A stretch of DNA of 32,537 nt. It comes from an uncultured Bacteroidales bacterium (lineage in GTDB: Bacteria; Bacteroidota; Bacteroidia; Bacteroidales; UBA932). The notes beneath the pieces are model-generated. The model worked only from the letters and a program-made list of their open reading frames with translations. It did not search any database and had not been told where the DNA came from. The translations under genes and the position numbers were made by a program. The stretch is taken from positions 1-32,537 of the forward strand of contig CAMJJZ010000007.1 in NCBI GenBank assembly GCA_946406275.1, in the 5' to 3' direction. The first letter of the stretch is position 1, and the number at the start of each line of letters is the position of its first letter. Below, piece by piece: positions 793-8,558 of the stretch.

Positions 793-3501
793 ATGGCAGA
801 AATCAGACTATCGAAACTGATCAAACAATTCAACATAGGGCTTGACACCCTGGTGGACTTCCTGAATTCAAAAGGCGCCGGAATAGAGGATGCAAATCCC
901 AACCTGAAGGTGTCTGACGAGTTCATGCCGGAGCTTCACAAGAAGTTCGGCAAGGACCTTGAGCTCAAGGAAGCCGCAGAGAAAGTGGACGTCAAGCTCA
1001 CTGAGATTCTGGACAAGGCTTCCAAGAAGCAGGGCCAGGAAGAAGAGGACTACGAGCCGGAAAGGGTTACCGTCATCAAGAGTAACAACCTCTCCCGCGC
1101 CGCGAAGCCCGTGGCAGAGCCGGAGCCGGAACCGGAACCCGTTCCTGAACCGGAGCCGGAGCCCGTGGTGGAACCCGAGCCCGTAGTAGAACCGGAACCT
1201 GTGGTTGAGCCGGAACCCGAACCCGTAGTGGAACCGGAACCCATAGCAGAGCCCGAACCCGATCCCGTAGTGGAGCCGGAGCCGGTGGTAGAACCCGAGC
1301 CGGAACCTGAAGTAGAGGAAACCCCCGCCCCGACCCCAGCGGAGGAACCTGCACAGGAAGGCTCTCCCCTCAAGGTTATCGGCAAGATAGACCTGTCCCA
1401 GTTTGACCCCAAGCGCACCAAGAAGCGCGAGCGCATCAAGGCCGGCGGCCCCCAGAAGGTGGACGTGACCAAGGTGCAGGCCGACAAGGCTCCCAAGAAG
1501 GGCGACAAGAAGAAGCAGGAAGTCCCCGCGGCCGGAAAGAACCGCAAGAAAGGCGACCGCTTCAAGCCCGCAATGACTGAGGCCGAGCAGGAAGAACTGC
1601 AGAAGGAAATCCAGAAGCAGGTTAAGGAAACCTACGCCAAGATGAACGAGAACAAGCCCAATTTCGGCGCCAAGCACCGCAAGGAGAAGCGCGAGATTGC
1701 AGCCCTCCGTTCACAGGAAGAGATGGAAGCCGCCGCAGCGGAGAACAAGGTCCTCAAGGTTACCGAGTTCGTTACCGTCAACGACCTTGCAACCCTCATG
1801 AACAACACACCCGTGGTGAAGGTCATCGGCGCCTGCATGTCCCTGGGCATGATGGTTTCCATCAACCAGCGCCTCGACGCAGAGACGCTTGTGCTGGTTG
1901 CAGAGGAGTTCGGCTACAAGGTAGAATTTGTAACCGCGGAGCTTAGCGAGGAAATCGAGCAGCAGGAGCCTGACCGCGAGGAAGACCTGGTGGAGCGTCC
2001 TCCGGTGATTACCGTCATGGGTCACGTAGACCACGGTAAGACCAGTCTCCTTGACAACATCCGCAACACCAACGTAATCGCAGGCGAGGCCGGCGGCATC
2101 ACCCAGCACATTGGCGCATACAGCGTGAAGCTGGAGAGCGGCAGGCGCATCACCTTCCTGGATACCCCTGGTCACGAGGCCTTCACTGCCATGCGTGCCC
2201 GCGGTGCCCAGATGACGGACCTTGCAATTATCATCGTCGCGGCCGATGACGCCGTGATGCCCCAGACCAAGGAAGCAATTGCCCACGCACAGGCTGCAGG
2301 CGTTCCCATGGTCTTCGCAATCAATAAGATCGATAAGCCCGGCGCAAATCCGGACACCATCCGCCGCCAGCTGTCGGAAATGAACATCCTGGTGGAGGAC
2401 TGGGGCGGTAAGTACCAGTGCCAGGAGATATCGGCAAAGAAGGGCATCGGAGTGGACAAACTCCTTGAGAAGGTGCTCTTTGAGACTGACCTCCTCGAGC
2501 TCAAGGCCAACCCCAACAAGATGGGAAGCGGCGCCGTCATCGAAAGCTCCCTGGACAAGGGCCGCGGCTATCTGGCAACGGTACTGGTGCAGGACGGCAC
2601 TGTGAACGTGGGTGACGTAATCATCTCCGGAAGCTACTACGGCAGGGTTAAGGCCATGTACAACGAGCGCGGACAGAAAGTTGAAAGCGCCGGACCTTCC
2701 ACCCCCGTGAGCCTCCTGGGCCTCAACGGCGCCCCCGCCGCAGGTGAGAAGTTCAACATCATGTCCGATGAAAGGGAAGCCAAGTCCATCGCCCAGAGGC
2801 GCGAGCAGCTTATCCGCATCCAGGGCATCAAGACGCAGAAGCACCTTACCCTGGAAGAAATTGGCCGCCGCATAGCCATCGGCAACTTCAAGGAACTGAA
2901 CGTCATCGTCAAGGGCGATGTGGACGGTTCCGTGGAAGCCCTGTCCGATTCCCTCATCAAGCTTTCTACAGAGGAAGTCCGCGTGAACGTGATCCACAAG
3001 GCCGTTGGCGCCATCTCCGAGAGCGACGTCCTTCTGGCCGAGGCATCCGACGCCGTGATCATCGGCTTCCAGGTGCGTCCTTCTTCCGAGGCACGCCGTG
3101 CCGCCGAGAAGGAAGGCATAGAAATCCGCCTCTACTCCGTTATCTACGACTGTATCAACGAGGTTAAGGAAGGTATCGAGGGTATGCTGGAGCCTGAAAA
3201 GAAGGAAGAAGTCACCGCAACGGCAGAAGTCAAGCAGACCTTCAAGATCTCCAAGGTTGGCACCATTGCCGGCTGCATTGTGAAGGAAGGCAAGCTTACC
3301 AACAAGGCCGATGTCCGCCTCATCCGCGACGGTATTGTTGTGTACACCGGTTCCCTGTCATCCCTCCAGAGGGGCAAGGACCAGGCCAAGGAAGTCCCCG
3401 CCGGCATGGAATGCGGCTGCGGCCTTGACAAGTACAACGACATCCACCCCGGTGACATCATCGAGGCCTTCCAGATCACGGAAATCAAGAGAAGTCTGTA
3501 G
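793..3501 (+). CDS. infB: Translation initiation factor IF-2
   Basis: 902-residue GTPase that places initiator fMet-tRNA on the 30S subunit and promotes subunit joining. The N-terminus has an IF2_N-like module ([21 protein letters not shown]). A Pro/Glu-rich low-complexity linker of about 65 residues (roughly residues 110-175) and a Lys-rich segment follow. The G domain begins near residue 413 with P-loop GHVDHGKT, then DTPGHEAF (G3) and NKIDKP (G4). Domains II, III and C2 follow to the C-terminus ([16 protein letters not shown]). It lies directly after nusA. A strong stem-loop 50 bp past the stop probably ends the operon. The only unusual point is the long, almost pure [11 protein letters not shown] tract. 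The assignment is certain. Confidence 0.98.
1117..1320 (+). repeat. Degenerate Pro-Glu codon repeat inside infB
   Basis: About 200 bp built of imperfect 6- to 18-bp units such as GAGCCGGAACCC, encoding alternating PEPEP and VVEPEP blocks in the N-terminal linker of IF-2. It is in frame and codon-degenerate, so it looks maintained at the protein level. It also produces long open frames on the opposite strand that are artefacts. Confidence 0.8.
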
Positions 3502-3769: not shown

Positions 3770-4654
3770 CTACTGTTCTACCCACTTGTAGACGCCGCCG
3801 TCCATTGCATTCAGGTCAGGAACTCTGAAGGCATGAGTAGTCTTGCTGTTCCACGATGAAGCTGTTACAGGCGAAGTGTATACATACGTTTTACTGGTCT
3901 CGGAATCTGTCAATGTTAGTTTTAAAGTATTCTGGTCTACAGTCTGATCCGGAATTGAGAAACACAGACCATTCTGGGAATAGGCATTGATTTCAGAACC
4001 ATTGTCGCCATGGTAAAACTCACCAGTAATACCGGCGCTCCATTTATCATTATACCATGTTGTGTATCCAAATCCCACCTGCAACTTATATCTGGATACC
4101 TCACCATAATTATTGACATTAATCGCCGTACCGTTCCTGTGATGGAAAGTGCCACCGTCTGACAGACAGAACTGAACATAAGTCTTAGGCGCCGTCAGAT
4201 TAACACTTGCGCTTAATACCCCAGCAGAAATAGAATATGAGGCATTCTTGTGCTCTAGAACATAACCATGATAGACGCCGCCACTATAGCAGTAGAAGTG
4301 AAAGTTGGTTGAATATTTAATTGAGCCGCCAAATTTTGTTACCGGGGAATAAACGGCTGAAAGGGTGCCGGAAGTAGTGCCGGCTATAATGGCCTCCAGT
4401 CCGTCACTCCAACTTTGAGCAGTCCATACTCCAGAAACTCTTTTGATTTCGAGATAACCTCTCTGACCCTTGAAGAATAGGTATATCCTGTCTCCGTTTG
4501 CCCATGCTGTCTTTACTCCCTTTGTCTCTGTCTCGTCTACATTTATATTAACTTCAAGATGGGTATTCTCTGGGTCAGAAACGGTGATGTCATTTATCTT
4601 CTGGCAAGAAATGCTTGCGGCAAGAATGCCTGCTATAATCAATACTTTCTTCAT
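3770..4654 (-). CDS. Fimbrillin-like surface lipoprotein (predicted OFF-state partner of the invertible locus)
   Basis: 294 residues. The N-terminus is a lipoprotein signal peptide (MKKVLIIAGILAASISC, lipobox Cys17), so the protein should be lipid-anchored in the envelope and possibly surface-exposed. The following region (ETKGVKTAWANGDRIYLFF) has the pattern seen at the start of Bacteroidales fimbrillin-family beta-sandwich domains and resembles DTRAV...SWSNGEQVIIFY in the divergent gene at 5713. The rest is rich in Tyr, Ser and Gly with no catalytic motif. An AAGGAGGA stretch 7 nt before the ATG is an unusually good Shine-Dalgarno for this phylum. The gene follows a small start-less reading frame (4673-4822) by 18 bp. 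No promoter is visible upstream in the present orientation, so expression is expected only after the 4798-5590 segment inverts. The exact fimbrillin subfamily is uncertain. Confidence 0.75.
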   Translation of the reverse strand: MKKVLIIAGILAASISCQKINDITVSDPENTHLEVNINVDETETKGVKTAWANGDRIYLFFKGQRGYLEIKRVSGVWTAQSWSDGLEAIIAGTTSGTLSAVYSPVTKFGGSIKYSTNFHFYCYSGGVYHGYVLEHKNASYSISAGVLSASVNLTAPKTYVQFCLSDGGTFHHRNGTAINVNNYGEVSRYKLQVGFGYTTWYNDKWSAGITGEFYHGDNGSEINAYSQNGLCFSIPDQTVDQNTLKLTLTDSETSKTYVYTSPVTASSWNSKTTHAFRVPDLNAMDGGVYKWVEQ

Positions 4655-4672: not shown

Positions 4673-4822
4673 TTATAGTATCGTCTCGTCCCCAAACGGG
4701 TTCGTATAATCTCCTATGCCTACGCCGTTAGCATCTACCGTGCTGGCGCAGATTACACCTTCAAATTGCACCTTTAATTCATAAGCCTCAGGTGCGAAAT
4801 AACGTTGGATTGTATATTCGCG
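4673..4822 (-). pseudogene. Start-less small ORF, silent partner of the 5569-5688 ORF
   Basis: Minus-strand open frame with a stop at 4673-4675 and an in-frame stop just upstream at 4823-4825. It has no ATG, GTG or TTG at its 5' end. From the crossover site onward it reads RYFAPEAYELKVQFEGVICA followed by STVDANGVGIGDYTNPFGDE and TIL. This matches the plus-strand small ORF (RYYSPETFVIEVKYEGVICA, then SI...DPFAL), including the EGVICAS core and the PF near the end. The frame enters the AACGTTATT site in the same register (..CGT TAT..) as the intact ORF, so inversion would supply ATG and five codons in frame and give a 48-residue peptide. I read it as a locked-off allele and not as decay. Confidence 0.75.
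4798..4806 (-). repeat. Left crossover-site candidate (inverted AACGTTATT)
   Basis: On the minus strand this reads AACGTTATT, identical to 5582-5590, and encodes the CGT TAT codons of the start-less small ORF. Flanking inner sequence is not obviously shared. A 9-bp match is short, and the call rests mainly on its exact placement at the point where homology between the two small ORFs begins. It resembles the core of Mpi-type sites of Bacteroides fragilis as I remember them (around ARACGTWCGT), matching at 7 of 10 positions. Confidence 0.6.
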
Positions 4823-4830
4823 TTAAAAAG

Positions 4831-5472
4831 ATGAATTACGGGTACATAAGAGTCAGCAGCGACCACCAGACGGTGGAAAACCAGCGGTACGAGATTAAAC
4901 AATTCTGCCAGAATACAGACATGGCCATAGACGGGTGGATAGAAGAAACCATCAGTGGTATGAAAAGTTACGATAAAAGGGAGCTTGGGAAACTACTCCG
5001 GCGTGTGAAGGAAGGTGATCTTATCATATGCGCCGAACTCTCACGGCTTGGGCGAAACCTGTATATGATTATGGAAATACTGGGCATCTGCATGAACAAA
5101 GGCTGCCGGGTTTGGACCATTAAGGATGGATTCCGTTTGGAAGACAATGTTCAGAGCAAGGTGCTTGCTTTTGCGTTTGGACTGTCGGCGGAGATAGAGC
5201 GGACGCTGATAAGCCAGCGGACAAAAGAGGCGCTTGCAAGACGAAAGGCAGAGGGCGTTTCATTAGGACGCCCAAAAGGAAAAAAGAATGCTCCTGATAA
5301 GTACAAACTGTCGGGCAAAGAAGCCTATATCAGCCGTCTGGCAAAGAAAGGATTCTCCAAAAGAGAAGTGGCGCGGCTCTGTAAAGTTGACAAGAATACT
5401 CTCAAACGATTTGTCCGCGAAAGAATGCCTGAATTGGCCTGGAAAGGTGAAAATAATGATTTTTCAGTATAG
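4831..5472 (+). CDS. Serine site-specific recombinase / DNA invertase, Mpi-like
   Basis: 213 residues from ATG 4831 (MNYGYIRVSSDHQTVENQRY). A longer frame from GTG 4792 would overlap the crossover site and adds residues foreign to the family. Resolvase/invertase catalytic domain: nucleophilic Ser in YIRVSSDHQ (residues 9/10), the arginine motif AELSRLGRN, and the E-helix region EIERTLISQRTKEALARRK, then GRPKG. The C-terminal helix-turn-helix (about residues 160-200) reads GFSKREVARLCKVDKNTLKRF. Length and motifs fit the Bacteroides master invertase Mpi and local invertases. It lies wholly within the segment it probably inverts. A degenerate -7 box TATATTCG (4813-4820) sits just upstream, still inside the segment, while the matching -33 position falls outside, so its expression could differ between orientations (inference). 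Confidence 0.9.
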   Translation: MNYGYIRVSSDHQTVENQRYEIKQFCQNTDMAIDGWIEETISGMKSYDKRELGKLLRRVKEGDLIICAELSRLGRNLYMIMEILGICMNKGCRVWTIKDGFRLEDNVQSKVLAFAFGLSAEIERTLISQRTKEALARRKAEGVSLGRPKGKKNAPDKYKLSGKEAYISRLAKKGFSKREVARLCKVDKNTLKRFVRERMPELAWKGENNDFSV

Positions 5473-5499
5473 GTCATAAACAAAAATACTGATAAGTTA

Positions 5500-5531
5500 T
5501 TAAGCCTAAAAACGGGTGGAAACTAACTTTG
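5500..5531 (+). promoter_or_regulatory. Outward promoter on the invertible segment
   Basis: A perfect Bacteroidetes -7 box TAACTTTG is at 5524-5531, with a weak -33 candidate TTAA (5500-5503) at a 20-bp spacing. The start of transcription would be near 5537, about 30 nt before the small ORF at 5569. In this orientation it drives the small ORF and the 5713 lipoprotein; after inversion it would drive the minus-strand operon. Confidence 0.65.
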
Positions 5532-5568
5532 TGAAGTTGTTTTGGAACAAATCAAAAACTATATGCTT

Positions 5569-5688
5569 ATGAAAGAAAAAGAACGTTATTATTCACCCGA
5601 AACTTTTGTCATTGAGGTGAAGTATGAGGGCGTAATCTGCGCTTCAATTCAGGATTATGATTCCGCACCCGATCCGTTTGCTCTGTAA
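5569..5688 (+). CDS. Small protein at the head of the active lipoprotein operon
   Basis: 39 codons from ATG 5569 (MKEKERYYSPETFVIEVKYE) to TAA 5686-5688; ATG 5563 would add Met-Leu. It ends GVICASIQDYDSAPDPFAL. It is too short for standard gene calls, but a homologous frame occurs on the opposite flank of the segment (4673-4822) and both precede a fimbrillin-like lipoprotein. I recall many short Bacteroidales ORFs of this style (K-Y-x-P-E start, C-A-S core) ahead of fimbrillin genes, with no established function. The AACGTTATT site covers codons 5-8. There is no signal peptide. It could be a leader ORF that couples translation to the lipoprotein 24 bp downstream, or a functional small protein. 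Confidence 0.7.
   Translation: MKEKERYYSPETFVIEVKYEGVICASIQDYDSAPDPFAL
5582..5590 (+). repeat. Right crossover-site candidate AACGTTATT
   Basis: Identical, in inverted orientation, to 4798-4806. It lies 13 nt inside the small ORF, straddling its CGT TAT codons. The longer AAGAACGTTAT (5579-5589) recurs directly at 7132-7142. Confidence 0.6.
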
Positions 5689-5712: not shown

Positions 5713-7029
5713 ATGACAATGAATAAGATGAATCTTTTAAAGAATATAGCCGCCATAATACTGCTGGTGGCAGGAGTAGCGGCATGCTCAAAGAGCAATA
5801 CTGTAGTTGAAAACGAGCCCTTGACAGAAGCAACCTTCACTCAGACCATCCACGTAACTCTTGGAGGTCCGGACACCCGCGCCGTTGATGCTGACGGTCA
5901 CAAGTCATGGAGCAATGGTGAGCAGGTAATAATATTTTATTCTAATTCTGTTGATAATTTAACAGCAGTAACGGGTACACTCTCCAACGTAAGTGGCAAA
6001 TCGGCCGATATCACGGTAACATTCTCTCAAGTACCCAAGGCAAACGGCGATATGAATCTGGTTTATCCTTCCTCAGCAGGCGAATTATTGTCTGCAGACC
6101 ACATCAGAACCACCCTACTCAATAATCAGGATGGCACGCTGGCCACGCTCAGTTCCACACTCGATGTGGCAACAGCCACGGTACAGGCCACAGCAAGCAG
6201 TGAAATGCCTGAGAATATTACTCTGACCAACGCGTTCAGCATATTCAAGTTTACGCTCATGTACGGCTCTACAGATCTGACCGCATCTACCACAGATCTC
6301 CTTATCAACGATGGTACAAACAACTATAATATTAGCCGTGCAGCCGAAGCCGGTCCCATCTATGTAGCCATGCGACCCATAGCCGGCGCCAACTTCACTT
6401 TCTCTGCTATTGCAGGAGGTGATAACTACAGCCTGTCAAAGTCTGGCGTTACTATTGCAGCCAGCAAGATTTACAATTCAACCCTCAATTTGAACACAGC
6501 AGGCAATGTAGGTAAGATTCTGTGCACTGATGGTTCTATCTATGCAACGGTATCTGAAGCCGAAGCAGCCAGTAAGACCGTATCAGGCATGATAGCCTAC
6601 GAGGGTTCAGAGACCGGTGTTGCCGGCAAGACCAACGGCTTGGTGATTTCAGTGGCAGAAGATAACGGCAATTATAGCGATGCTGAAGCATGGGTCAGTA
6701 GCCTTGCAACTGAGCGTCCTGCCGGTGCCAGCGATTGGGCTATTCCTACCGTCACGCAATGGATGCGCATCATGCAGGCTTGTGGCGGCAGCGTAGTAAC
6801 CACAATGCCCACAGATGCAAACCTCGACTTCAGCTGGGGTCTTTTGAGCACCATGATTACAAATTGCGAAGGGGGTAACATGGCCGCGGCATCAAGTTCC
6901 CGCTACTGGACCAGCACAGACGGCAGCTCATCAGGAACAAAGGTGGTATACTACCCTCGTAGCCAGTATTTCCAATACAGTTATCTTGAAACTAATTATG
7001 GCCATTACCGCGCGGTTTTCGCCTGGTAA
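5713..7029 (+). CDS. Fimbrillin-like surface lipoprotein with C-terminal lectin/FGE-like tail domain (predicted ON-state)
   Basis: 438 residues. The N-terminal signal has lipobox LLVAGVAAC, giving an envelope lipoprotein. Residues about 45-265 resemble the fimbrillin/FimA-type beta domain (DTRAVDADGHKSWSNGEQ) and are similar in layout to the first domain of the divergent gene 3770-4654. The last 150 residues differ: SDWAIPTVTQWMRIMQACGG and later SRYWTSTDGSSS, ending NYGHYRAVFAW. This is the pattern of DUF1566 or fibrobacter-type C-terminal modules with a C-type-lectin/FGE-like fold, often a binding head. It follows the small ORF at 5569 by 24 bp under the promoter at 5524. The start could also be ATG 5719. 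A stem-loop terminator follows. Role inferred: alternative pilus-like subunit or adhesin. Confidence 0.75.
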   Translation: MTMNKMNLLKNIAAIILLVAGVAACSKSNTVVENEPLTEATFTQTIHVTLGGPDTRAVDADGHKSWSNGEQVIIFYSNSVDNLTAVTGTLSNVSGKSADITVTFSQVPKANGDMNLVYPSSAGELLSADHIRTTLLNNQDGTLATLSSTLDVATATVQATASSEMPENITLTNAFSIFKFTLMYGSTDLTASTTDLLINDGTNNYNISRAAEAGPIYVAMRPIAGANFTFSAIAGGDNYSLSKSGVTIAASKIYNSTLNLNTAGNVGKILCTDGSIYATVSEAEAASKTVSGMIAYEGSETGVAGKTNGLVISVAEDNGNYSDAEAWVSSLATERPAGASDWAIPTVTQWMRIMQACGGSVVTTMPTDANLDFSWGLLSTMITNCEGGNMAAASSSRYWTSTDGSSSGTKVVYYPRSQYFQYSYLETNYGHYRAVFAW

Positions 7030-7131: not shown

Positions 7132-7147
7132 AAGAACGTTATCTTTG
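7132..7147 (+). promoter_or_regulatory. Possible promoter of the regulator, overlapping a third AAGAACGTTAT motif
   Basis: A perfect -7 box TATCTTTG lies at 7140-7147, only 4 nt before ATG 7152, implying a nearly leaderless transcript; no clear -33 box is seen. AAGAACGTTAT at 7132-7142 is an 11-bp direct match to the right crossover site and overlaps the box. Chance is possible for both. Confidence 0.4.
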
Positions 7148-7151
7148 ACAT

Positions 7152-8558
7152 ATGAAACTACTATACATACTTGCTATTGCTGCATCCATTGCCGGAGGCA
7201 AGGTTCCGGAGCTTCTGGAGCAGGCAAGTGCCGATGTATCCAATCAGAGGTACGACGCCGCCATGGAGAAGGCATTGAGTGCGCTGGAGCTTTCCGACGG
7301 AGACCCGCAGTTGAAGGTTGAGGCGCTGTCTACCATCGTTGGCATAGACATTATGGCCAGCCGGGACGCCGATGCATGGGATAAGGCCCTCGAGGCCGAG
7401 GCCATAGCCCGCAAGCACGGCCTGGTAAAAGAGCTCTCGGCTATTCTCATCTCCAAGGCTAAACTCTGTTCCTACGCGGAGATTTCCCCGGAGACCGGAC
7501 GCAACGACGAAGGCCTTACCTATGCCATGGAGGCACTCTCCCTGGCCGAGGAGGCCGATGCGGTTGAGCAGCAGTGTGAGGCGTGCTACGTAATAGCATC
7601 GTTATATATAAACAAAAACCGCTGGAGTGACCCTATCGACAAAGATATCTACCGCACCGCCGGAGAATGGCTGGACAAGGGTCAGGCGCTGGCCGATACT
7701 TACGATCTTTCCCGCCTTCGCCGCAACGGCATCCTGTTCCGTTCCCGCTGGTTCCAGCAGGGCGGCAGGAACGAAGAGGCAATAAAGTACTTCGAGCAGG
7801 TACTGACCACCCTCAAGGAGACGGACCACCTTACGGCATCGTCCCTGGATGACCGCCTGGTGCGCCTGTATACCCGTACAGGTCGATACCAGGATGCCCT
7901 GGACGCACACGACGACTACGTATTCCATACTCAGAAATACATACAGCAGAAGCAGGACGAAACCATCCAGGAAATGGAAACCCGCTTCCAGGTTCAGGAG
8001 AAGGAAAGGGCCCTGGAGCGTAGCCAATACCGTATCTGGCTGCTGTTGCTGGCCCTCCTCCTTGCCGTGGCAGTAATAGGCATCATCGTCGCTTATCTTG
8101 GAAAGATCCGCCGGCGCAATGCGGAACTCCGGCGCCTTGCAGATTCTAAGGAACAGATAATAGAATTCCTGTCCAGAGATCTCAGGAATCCCGCAAATGC
8201 CATGGCGGGAGACATTACTGAACTATCATCAAAGGCTCCTTCGATGACGGCCGATGAAATACGCAGGCGCTGCCAGGAACTTGCCAAAGGTGCAGAATCC
8301 CTAAATGACGGTGTTGCGAAGTACGTTGGAGACATCCTGGTAGAGCGTAGTCGCAAGATTGCAGACATCGGCCTGTCCCCGCGAGAGATAGAGATAATCC
8401 GCCTGAGCGCAGAGGGCCTTCCCGCCGCAGAAATAGCCAAACGTACATTCCTGAGCGTACATACAGTGAACACCCATCGTCAGCATATCTATGCCAAGAT
8501 GGATGTCCGGAATGTATCTGACATGATCCGTAAGGCTACGGAGCTGGGAATAATCTAG
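7152..8558 (+). CDS. Membrane-anchored TPR / degenerate histidine-kinase / LuxR-type regulator
   Basis: 468 residues. The N-terminus is hydrophobic (MKLLYILAIAASIAGG), probably a signal, followed by TPR-like helices to about residue 270 and a coiled coil. One membrane segment (about 296-318, WLLLLALLLAVAVIGIIVAY) comes next. After it, SKEQIIEFLSRDLRNPANAM looks like the H-box of a histidine kinase (usual form S-H-D-L-R-x-P) but has Arg342 where the phosphorylated His should be, and no ATPase domain follows. The last 60 residues are a LuxR/GerE helix-turn-helix (LSPREIEIIRLSAEGLPAAE, then TFLSVHTVNTHRQHIYAKM). This layout suggests an envelope sensor that binds DNA from the membrane. It lies downstream of the phase-variable lipoprotein gene, and regulation of that locus is a guess from position only. 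Its stop overlaps the convergent gene by 4 bp. Confidence 0.8.
   Translation: MKLLYILAIAASIAGGKVPELLEQASADVSNQRYDAAMEKALSALELSDGDPQLKVEALSTIVGIDIMASRDADAWDKALEAEAIARKHGLVKELSAILISKAKLCSYAEISPETGRNDEGLTYAMEALSLAEEADAVEQQCEACYVIASLYINKNRWSDPIDKDIYRTAGEWLDKGQALADTYDLSRLRRNGILFRSRWFQQGGRNEEAIKYFEQVLTTLKETDHLTASSLDDRLVRLYTRTGRYQDALDAHDDYVFHTQKYIQQKQDETIQEMETRFQVQEKERALERSQYRIWLLLLALLLAVAVIGIIVAYLGKIRRRNAELRRLADSKEQIIEFLSRDLRNPANAMAGDITELSSKAPSMTADEIRRRCQELAKGAESLNDGVAKYVGDILVERSRKIADIGLSPREIEIIRLSAEGLPAAEIAKRTFLSVHTVNTHRQHIYAKMDVRNVSDMIRKATELGII

Follow-up and report, generated by a model that had tools for sequence, protein, structure and literature searches.

A putative two-way inversion switch moving a promoter and leader start codon between two lipoprotein operons in an uncultured Bacteroidales bacterium

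Described inversion systems and layout of the locus

Promoter inversion by serine invertases is already known from Hin and Mpi, and the transfer of a promoter together with 5′ coding sequence is known from M. pulmonis. In the Salmonella flagellar switch the serine invertase Hin is encoded within the inverted segment, as at the locus described here; the Hin segment has an outward promoter, which serves one operon directly and the other via a repressor. Unlike in Hin, each orientation of the present locus would feed a different operon, and the start codon would move as well. Mpi of Bacteroides fragilis, the enzyme of capsule promoter inversion, belongs by NCBIfam to the same family as the enzyme found here and likewise represents promoter inversion at surface loci. 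Mpi acts on 13 regions (PMC4747536) and its inverted repeat is given as ARACGTTCGTN (PMC8375218); set against that description, the site AACGTTATT has the RACGTT core in common and then continues with ATT where Mpi has CGT, so that the full repeat is not matched. Unlike in the Mpi system, the invertase gene lies inside the segment, the site lies inside a leader ORF and two alternative operons are involved.

In M. pulmonis, vsa inversion supplies silent genes with a promoter, a ribosome binding site and 714 nt from the start of a coding sequence (PMC2268961). This softens an earlier remark, made from the letters of the sequence alone, that a crossover within a leader ORF, with the invertase on the switch, is not standard, the movement of 5′ coding sequence having this precedent. 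The vsa inversions and those of the vpma/vsp lipoprotein genes depend on tyrosine recombinases at multigene loci, in contrast to the serine enzyme, the two operons and the approximately seven codons of a separate leader ORF that would move here. Invertons of gut Bacteroidota are described as primarily intergenic, with fimbrillin genes enriched near some inverton groups (PMC11892184), and no two-operon leader-ORF switch was found among described Bacteroidota invertons in the passages of literature consulted. What would be new, as far as this search of the literature goes and allowing that it may miss reports, is a local Mpi-family switch with its site inside a separate leader ORF and two operons alternating.

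The window, that is, the whole stretch of 32,537 nucleotides analysed, carries an initiation factor 2 gene at 793-3501, which identifies it as bacterial chromosome; among 16 genomes compared, this gene is closest to that of the Bacteroidales metagenome assembly UBA2716 (87% over 1283 bases). Between 4.7 and 5.7 kb two homologous leader ORFs diverge, each immediately 5′ of a lipoprotein gene, with an invertase gene and a TAnnTTTG motif between them:

3770-4654, minus strand: left lipoprotein gene, 294 aa, lipobox judged by eye
4673-4807, minus strand: left leader ORF, startless and without a promoter motif in the present orientation
4798-4806, minus strand: putative left recombination site AACGTTATT, within codons of the startless left leader ORF, kept in relatives
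4831-5472, plus strand: serine invertase of the Mpi family, inside the putatively invertible segment
5454-5469, minus strand: 16-bp element TACTGAAAAATCATTA, exact in the G614 and G626 loci, candidate operator
5524-5531, plus strand: putative promoter TAACTTTG, a Bacteroidales-type -7 motif (TAnnTTTG), right-pointing, 58 nt before the site
5563-5688, plus strand: right leader ORF, 41 aa and intact, supplied with promoter motif and start codon in the present orientation, identical to protein P0124
5582-5590, plus strand: putative right recombination site AACGTTATT, in codons 7-10 of the right leader ORF, kept in relatives
5713-7029, plus strand: right lipoprotein gene, 438 aa, lipobox judged by eye, weak Lcl_C match

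The sequence-only reading had proposed inverted sites at 4798-4806 and 5582-5590 around a serine invertase and a right-pointing promoter motif, and all of these elements were recovered. The right leader ORF (MLMKEKERYYSPETFVIEVKYEGVICASIQDYDSAPDPFAL) is complete, with ATG at 5563, a second ATG at 5569 and a stop at 5688; its site spans codons 7-10 counted from the first ATG and, as that reading had it, the fifth to eighth codons counted from the second. The left leader ORF (QRYFAPEAYELKVQFEGVICASTVDANGVGIGDYTNPFGDETIL) is open from CAA at 4807 to the stop at 4673, and its reported lack of a start and of a promoter was borne out: none of the five codons between it and the in-frame stop is ATG, GTG or TTG, and no TAnnTTTG occurs in the 150 nt upstream. 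Also as claimed, both leader ORFs read AACGTTATT in the same frame (CGT TAT), and inversion in silico gives the left side an in-frame ORF of 48 residues from the second ATG (50 from the first), leaving the right ORF startless. Apart from the missing start, the left leader ORF and the left lipoprotein gene are intact.

We consider it very likely that this locus is a two-way inversion switch that passes a promoter, a start codon and the opening codons of a leader ORF back and forth between two lipoprotein operons. By recombining the two AACGTTATT sites, the Mpi-family invertase (4831-5472) would turn over a 0.8-kb segment carrying one outward promoter, a 5′ leader, a start codon and about six to seven leader codons. 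In the present orientation promoter and start would serve the right leader ORF and the lipoprotein gene at 5713; in the inverted one they would be fused in frame with the left leader ORF and serve the lipoprotein gene at 4654-3770. Since the operon left behind would have neither promoter nor leader start, expression of the two should be mutually exclusive. We infer that this invertase is the recombining enzyme; the predicted promoter presumably works, the other side being silent, and both orientations probably occur within one population.

Within the window, exact AACGTTATT occurs in two copies only, mutually inverted, and with one mismatch it gives 11 matches against 4.0 (sd 1.8) expected from shuffles. 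The 61-nt inverted repeat of 72% identity in which both sites lie (4746-4806/5582-5642) can be put down to the leader ORFs being homologous (52% identity over 25 residues). Where two coding segments are homologous, an identity of 9 bp, taken alone, is weak evidence of a recombination site. The sites flank an outward promoter assigned by motif and position only, and TAnnTTTG occurs 18 times in the window against 12.8 expected, so that the lone motif is not significant. The weight of the case lies with the relatives and with the fusion protein described below.

The invertase matches the N-terminal resolvase/invertase catalytic domain (Pfam Resolvase PF00239, E 1.4e-32), exceeds the curated cut-off of the Mpi family (NCBIfam NF009949, 312.3 bits vs 272) and aligns with the DNA-invertase chain 4m6f through GY[IV]RVS. 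The parallel with Mpi that had been drawn from the arrangement thus also reflects kinship of the enzymes. The invertase gene would read toward whichever operon is on, and no promoter of its own is visible in the 24 nt from the left site to its ATG. Both lipoproteins are presumed to lie at the cell surface. The left one is perhaps fimbrillin- or adhesin-like, and the Lcl_C match of the right one (23.0 bits) falls under the cut-off of 34.9; an AlphaFold model of the latter had a pLDDT of 35.7 and was unusable for reading.

Conservation of the site and its coupling to promoter and start

A DNA search of 400 genomes gave matches in 81, mostly to the invertase part, and led to genome G614 (locus L232), in which the arrangement is complete. 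An invertase 70% identical to that of the window stands between two leader ORFs: a startless one, which precedes a homolog of the left lipoprotein (E 1e-41), and a start-bearing one, which precedes a lipoprotein with BspA-type leucine-rich repeats. The segment also encloses an AraC-type regulator (PF12833). Compared with the window, the start-bearing end is 96% identical over 49 bases, the invertase genes 66%.

The 16-bp site was searched in 398 and 387 genomes, draws that overlap with each other and with the 400-genome draws and that sample larger groups. Exact matches fall in seven distinct places (two each in G614, G375 and G505 and one in G512), all at the 5′ ends of leader ORFs, and in G614, G375 and G505 they were found in these searches at the switch locus only. 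Matches with one mismatch are near background, occurring in 26 of 398 genomes vs 25 for the reversed pattern and, in the second draw, in 16 of 387 vs 7 (control counts taken from the rows listed); for this reason the analysis used exact matches alone. One contig of G375 continues for 117 nt beyond the site and ends in the first 85 nt of an invertase gene, with a startless leader ORF on the opposite side of the site. In G505 the contig with a startless leader ORF ends 83 nt past the site; those 83 nt contain neither a start nor an invertase, and an enzyme 61% identical (C51) sits on another contig. In each of these two genomes a second contig has as its first base the first base of the site AACGTTATTTTTCACC. 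If both orientations coexist, assembly should yield contigs starting exactly where two alternative neighbours begin to share sequence; a mixture of strains could also cause such breaks. With their contigs cut at this point, G375 and G505 show no start-bearing copy.

In G626 (locus L236) two divergent leader ORFs, one of them startless, surround an AraC-type gene without an invertase, and the site cores differ (AACGTT vs AACGCT). The invertase-less pair is therefore the one that has drifted apart, in a single case: the exact run shared within each pair is 9 bp in the window, 16 in G614, 24 in G375, 16 in G505 and 4, the shortest, in G626. The opposite outcome named beforehand, a left ORF equipped with a start and promoter of its own in this orientation, is not what these relatives present, the partner being startless in G614, G375, G505 and G626; the start-codon check of leader ORFs covered the window and the loci from L202 onwards. 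The comparison of relatives speaks less uniformly in G512, where contig C72 has a start-bearing leader ORF with an operon resembling that of the left lipoprotein and no invertase within the 6.5 kb fetched, so that a fixed form exists in another species.

Across the 13 copies of the site, Arg is encoded by CGT in 12, Tyr by TAT in all 13, and the Ser/Ala codon ends in CA in all 13, counts that lean toward conservation because of how the copies were chosen: two are those of the window, ten were found through DNA similarity to the window or with a leader profile built from such copies, and the 13th, on G505:C41, was picked up among the rows listed by the DNA pattern alone. A conserved Gly further along is encoded by four different codons (in 5, 3, 3 and 1 copies) and replaced by Asn in one of the 13. 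The Val after this Gly is GTG in 10 of 12, codon constancy thus not being unique to the site. Judging from these codons, the site appears to be held at the DNA level.

Promoter motif and start codon go together as well. Four of five start-bearing copies have TAnnTTTG 55-58 nt ahead of the site (58 nt in the window, 55 in G614, 56 in G626 and 56 in G512:C72), the exception being G512:C2, and all six startless copies lack it; for two of these six, the sequence available upstream is 117 and 83 nt long. This count leaves out G375:C74 and G505:C41, where nothing precedes the site.

The element TACTGAAAAATCATTA recurs exactly at 4066-4081 (minus strand) of the G614 locus and at 4049-4064 (plus strand) of the G626 locus, in both cases ahead of the AraC-type gene. 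Among other loci totalling 1.89 Mb it has seven matches with at most one mismatch, of which four fall in stretches that repeat those of G614 and G626 and three at leader-ORF loci. It is thus present in three switch-type loci, near promoters or AraC-type genes, and may be an operator of the AraC-type regulator.

Mpi-family invertases are common and occur in many contexts. The nearest enzymes by sequence, in G652 and G001 (75%, vs 70% for that of G614), do not sit at leader ORFs: none of the switch type was present in the 7.5 and 4.0 kb fetched around them. The leader peptides gave a best E of 0.30 against the loci of the 80 retained invertase relatives (80 of a larger number) and of 0.061 in scans of viral sequences, comprising seven contigs with the junction pattern and 80 with invertases. 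Four of the 80 relatives (L002, L034, L049 and L068) have the enzyme flanked by two homologous genes that diverge, and inverted repeats cover the gene starts or lie close to them; as the printed repeats lack AACGTT, they were not counted as the same switch. In three of them (L068 5800-6790, L034 5440-6750 and L049 5350-6845) Mpi-type invertases stand between divergent SusC-like genes whose starts are covered by long inverted repeats, possibly as analogous switches of other surface genes.

The fusion protein and alternative explanations

The product predicted for the left side in the flipped state, MLMKEKE-RYFAPEAYELK... (50 residues), was searched against 5,772,631,384 proteins and returned a single one, P0123 (JGI source), of 50 residues, identical at 49 of 50 (E 2e-25). 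This protein (MLMKEKERYFAPEAYEFKVQFEGVICASTVDANGVGIGDYTNPFGDETIL) has MLMKEKE, the seven N-terminal residues of the right ORF, joined at RY to the left-type tail with one substitution. The search with the right ORF returned two proteins, P0124, which is the window's own, and P0125 (46 aa), which reads MKEKERYYSPETFVIEVKYEGVICAS followed by a different tail: its first 26 residues equal the right ORF from its second Met, and its tail reads ...SIVAPGFLDGGELL. The fusion search missed P0124 and P0125 although both share words with the query, and so it was not exhaustive. A further protein, P0002, is an invertase 99% identical to that of the window. The longest contigs of P0125 and P0002 share the length 8270, an equality by which the two may belong to one contig combining a right-type start with another right-hand cassette. 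The G505:C41 leader has a tail, ...SIIAPGFENGGELV, that resembles that of P0125 and precedes another lipoprotein gene and an ORF like the TPR-LuxR gene at 7152 of the window. Judging from these two tails, right-hand cassettes seem to vary among strains.

Flipped-state DNA was not seen in the sequences searched; P0123 and the contigs starting at the site point to both orientations in nature. MKEKE is common in the leader family and P0123 is a peptide without genomic context, so that it might also come from a strain whose left operon is fixed. In an account without any flipping, a mobile invertase would have landed before an older left operon and removed its start, the left leader ORF would be a relic, and P0123 would come from strains whose fixed left operon is uncut. 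Such an account would be in line with the start-bearing, invertase-less leader ORF of G512:C72, with a leader fragment in G644 (L330) that no switch genes adjoin, and with the commonness of Mpi-family invertases in many contexts, yet it has difficulty with startless partner ORFs cut at the same codon by the invertase in G614, the invertase start in G375 and the contig end in G505, with the G375 and G505 contigs that begin at the site, with the window's own ML-MKEKE start in P0123, and with a left ORF and lipoprotein gene damaged in nothing except the start; we regard it as improbable. Less probable still, and hardly credible, is a left-right exchange brought about by gene conversion or homologous recombination among paralogous leader ORFs in place of site-specific inversion by the invertase at 4831-5472: P0125, with right-type residues ahead of another tail, suggests exchange or replacement also deeper, about GVICAS, and shared runs of just 9-24 bp are no more than gene homology could leave, but such runs are short for homologous recombination, invertase and inverted sites co-occur in the window and in G614, with an invertase start by the site in G375, and the pair without an invertase in G626 has diverged at the core. 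The inversion proposed by the sequence-only reading gains support from P0123, from the repeated anatomy in relatives and from the two genomes with contigs starting at the site.

The leader ORF family and the meaning of the putative switch

Leader ORFs of the type Y-SPE-E---GV-C-S occur in at least 229 of the 400 genomes of the genus draw, with up to 15 per genome among the matches listed. In the loci read they mostly stand before lipoprotein genes, and the family has no name. Short leader fragments with the site or a near-site were observed in G644 at L330 4115 (minus strand), where no switch genes adjoin, and in G614 at about L232 7331 (plus strand), beside the complete switch; both are perhaps relics of further sites. 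In the window itself a third AAGAACGTTATC, in direct repeat, lies at 7132-7149, just 5′ of the TPR-LuxR regulator gene at 7152, where it overlaps a TATCTTTG motif; this copy is possibly due to chance.

Returning to the two-way inversion switch, it is tempting, if only as a tentative idea that we hold to be rather doubtful, to view the leader ORF as encoding a small protein whose N terminus is constant and carried by the switch and whose tail differs by operon and suits the lipoprotein encoded there; the widespread family would supply interchangeable cassettes for it. P0125 and the similar tail of G505:C41 suggest such interchange. If this is true, each flip would swap the small protein and the surface lipoprotein together, and the conserved site in the first codons would be coding sequence and recombination site at once.

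The locus would represent a compact two-way lipoprotein switch in Bacteroidales, apparently operated by a locally acting Mpi-family enzyme, whose site doubles as coding sequence. As a 0.8-kb module with two alternating outputs, in which the silent side would be denied both promoter and leader start, it is a possible genetic part. It also draws attention to a widespread and still unnamed family of leader ORFs that precede lipoprotein genes in the loci read.
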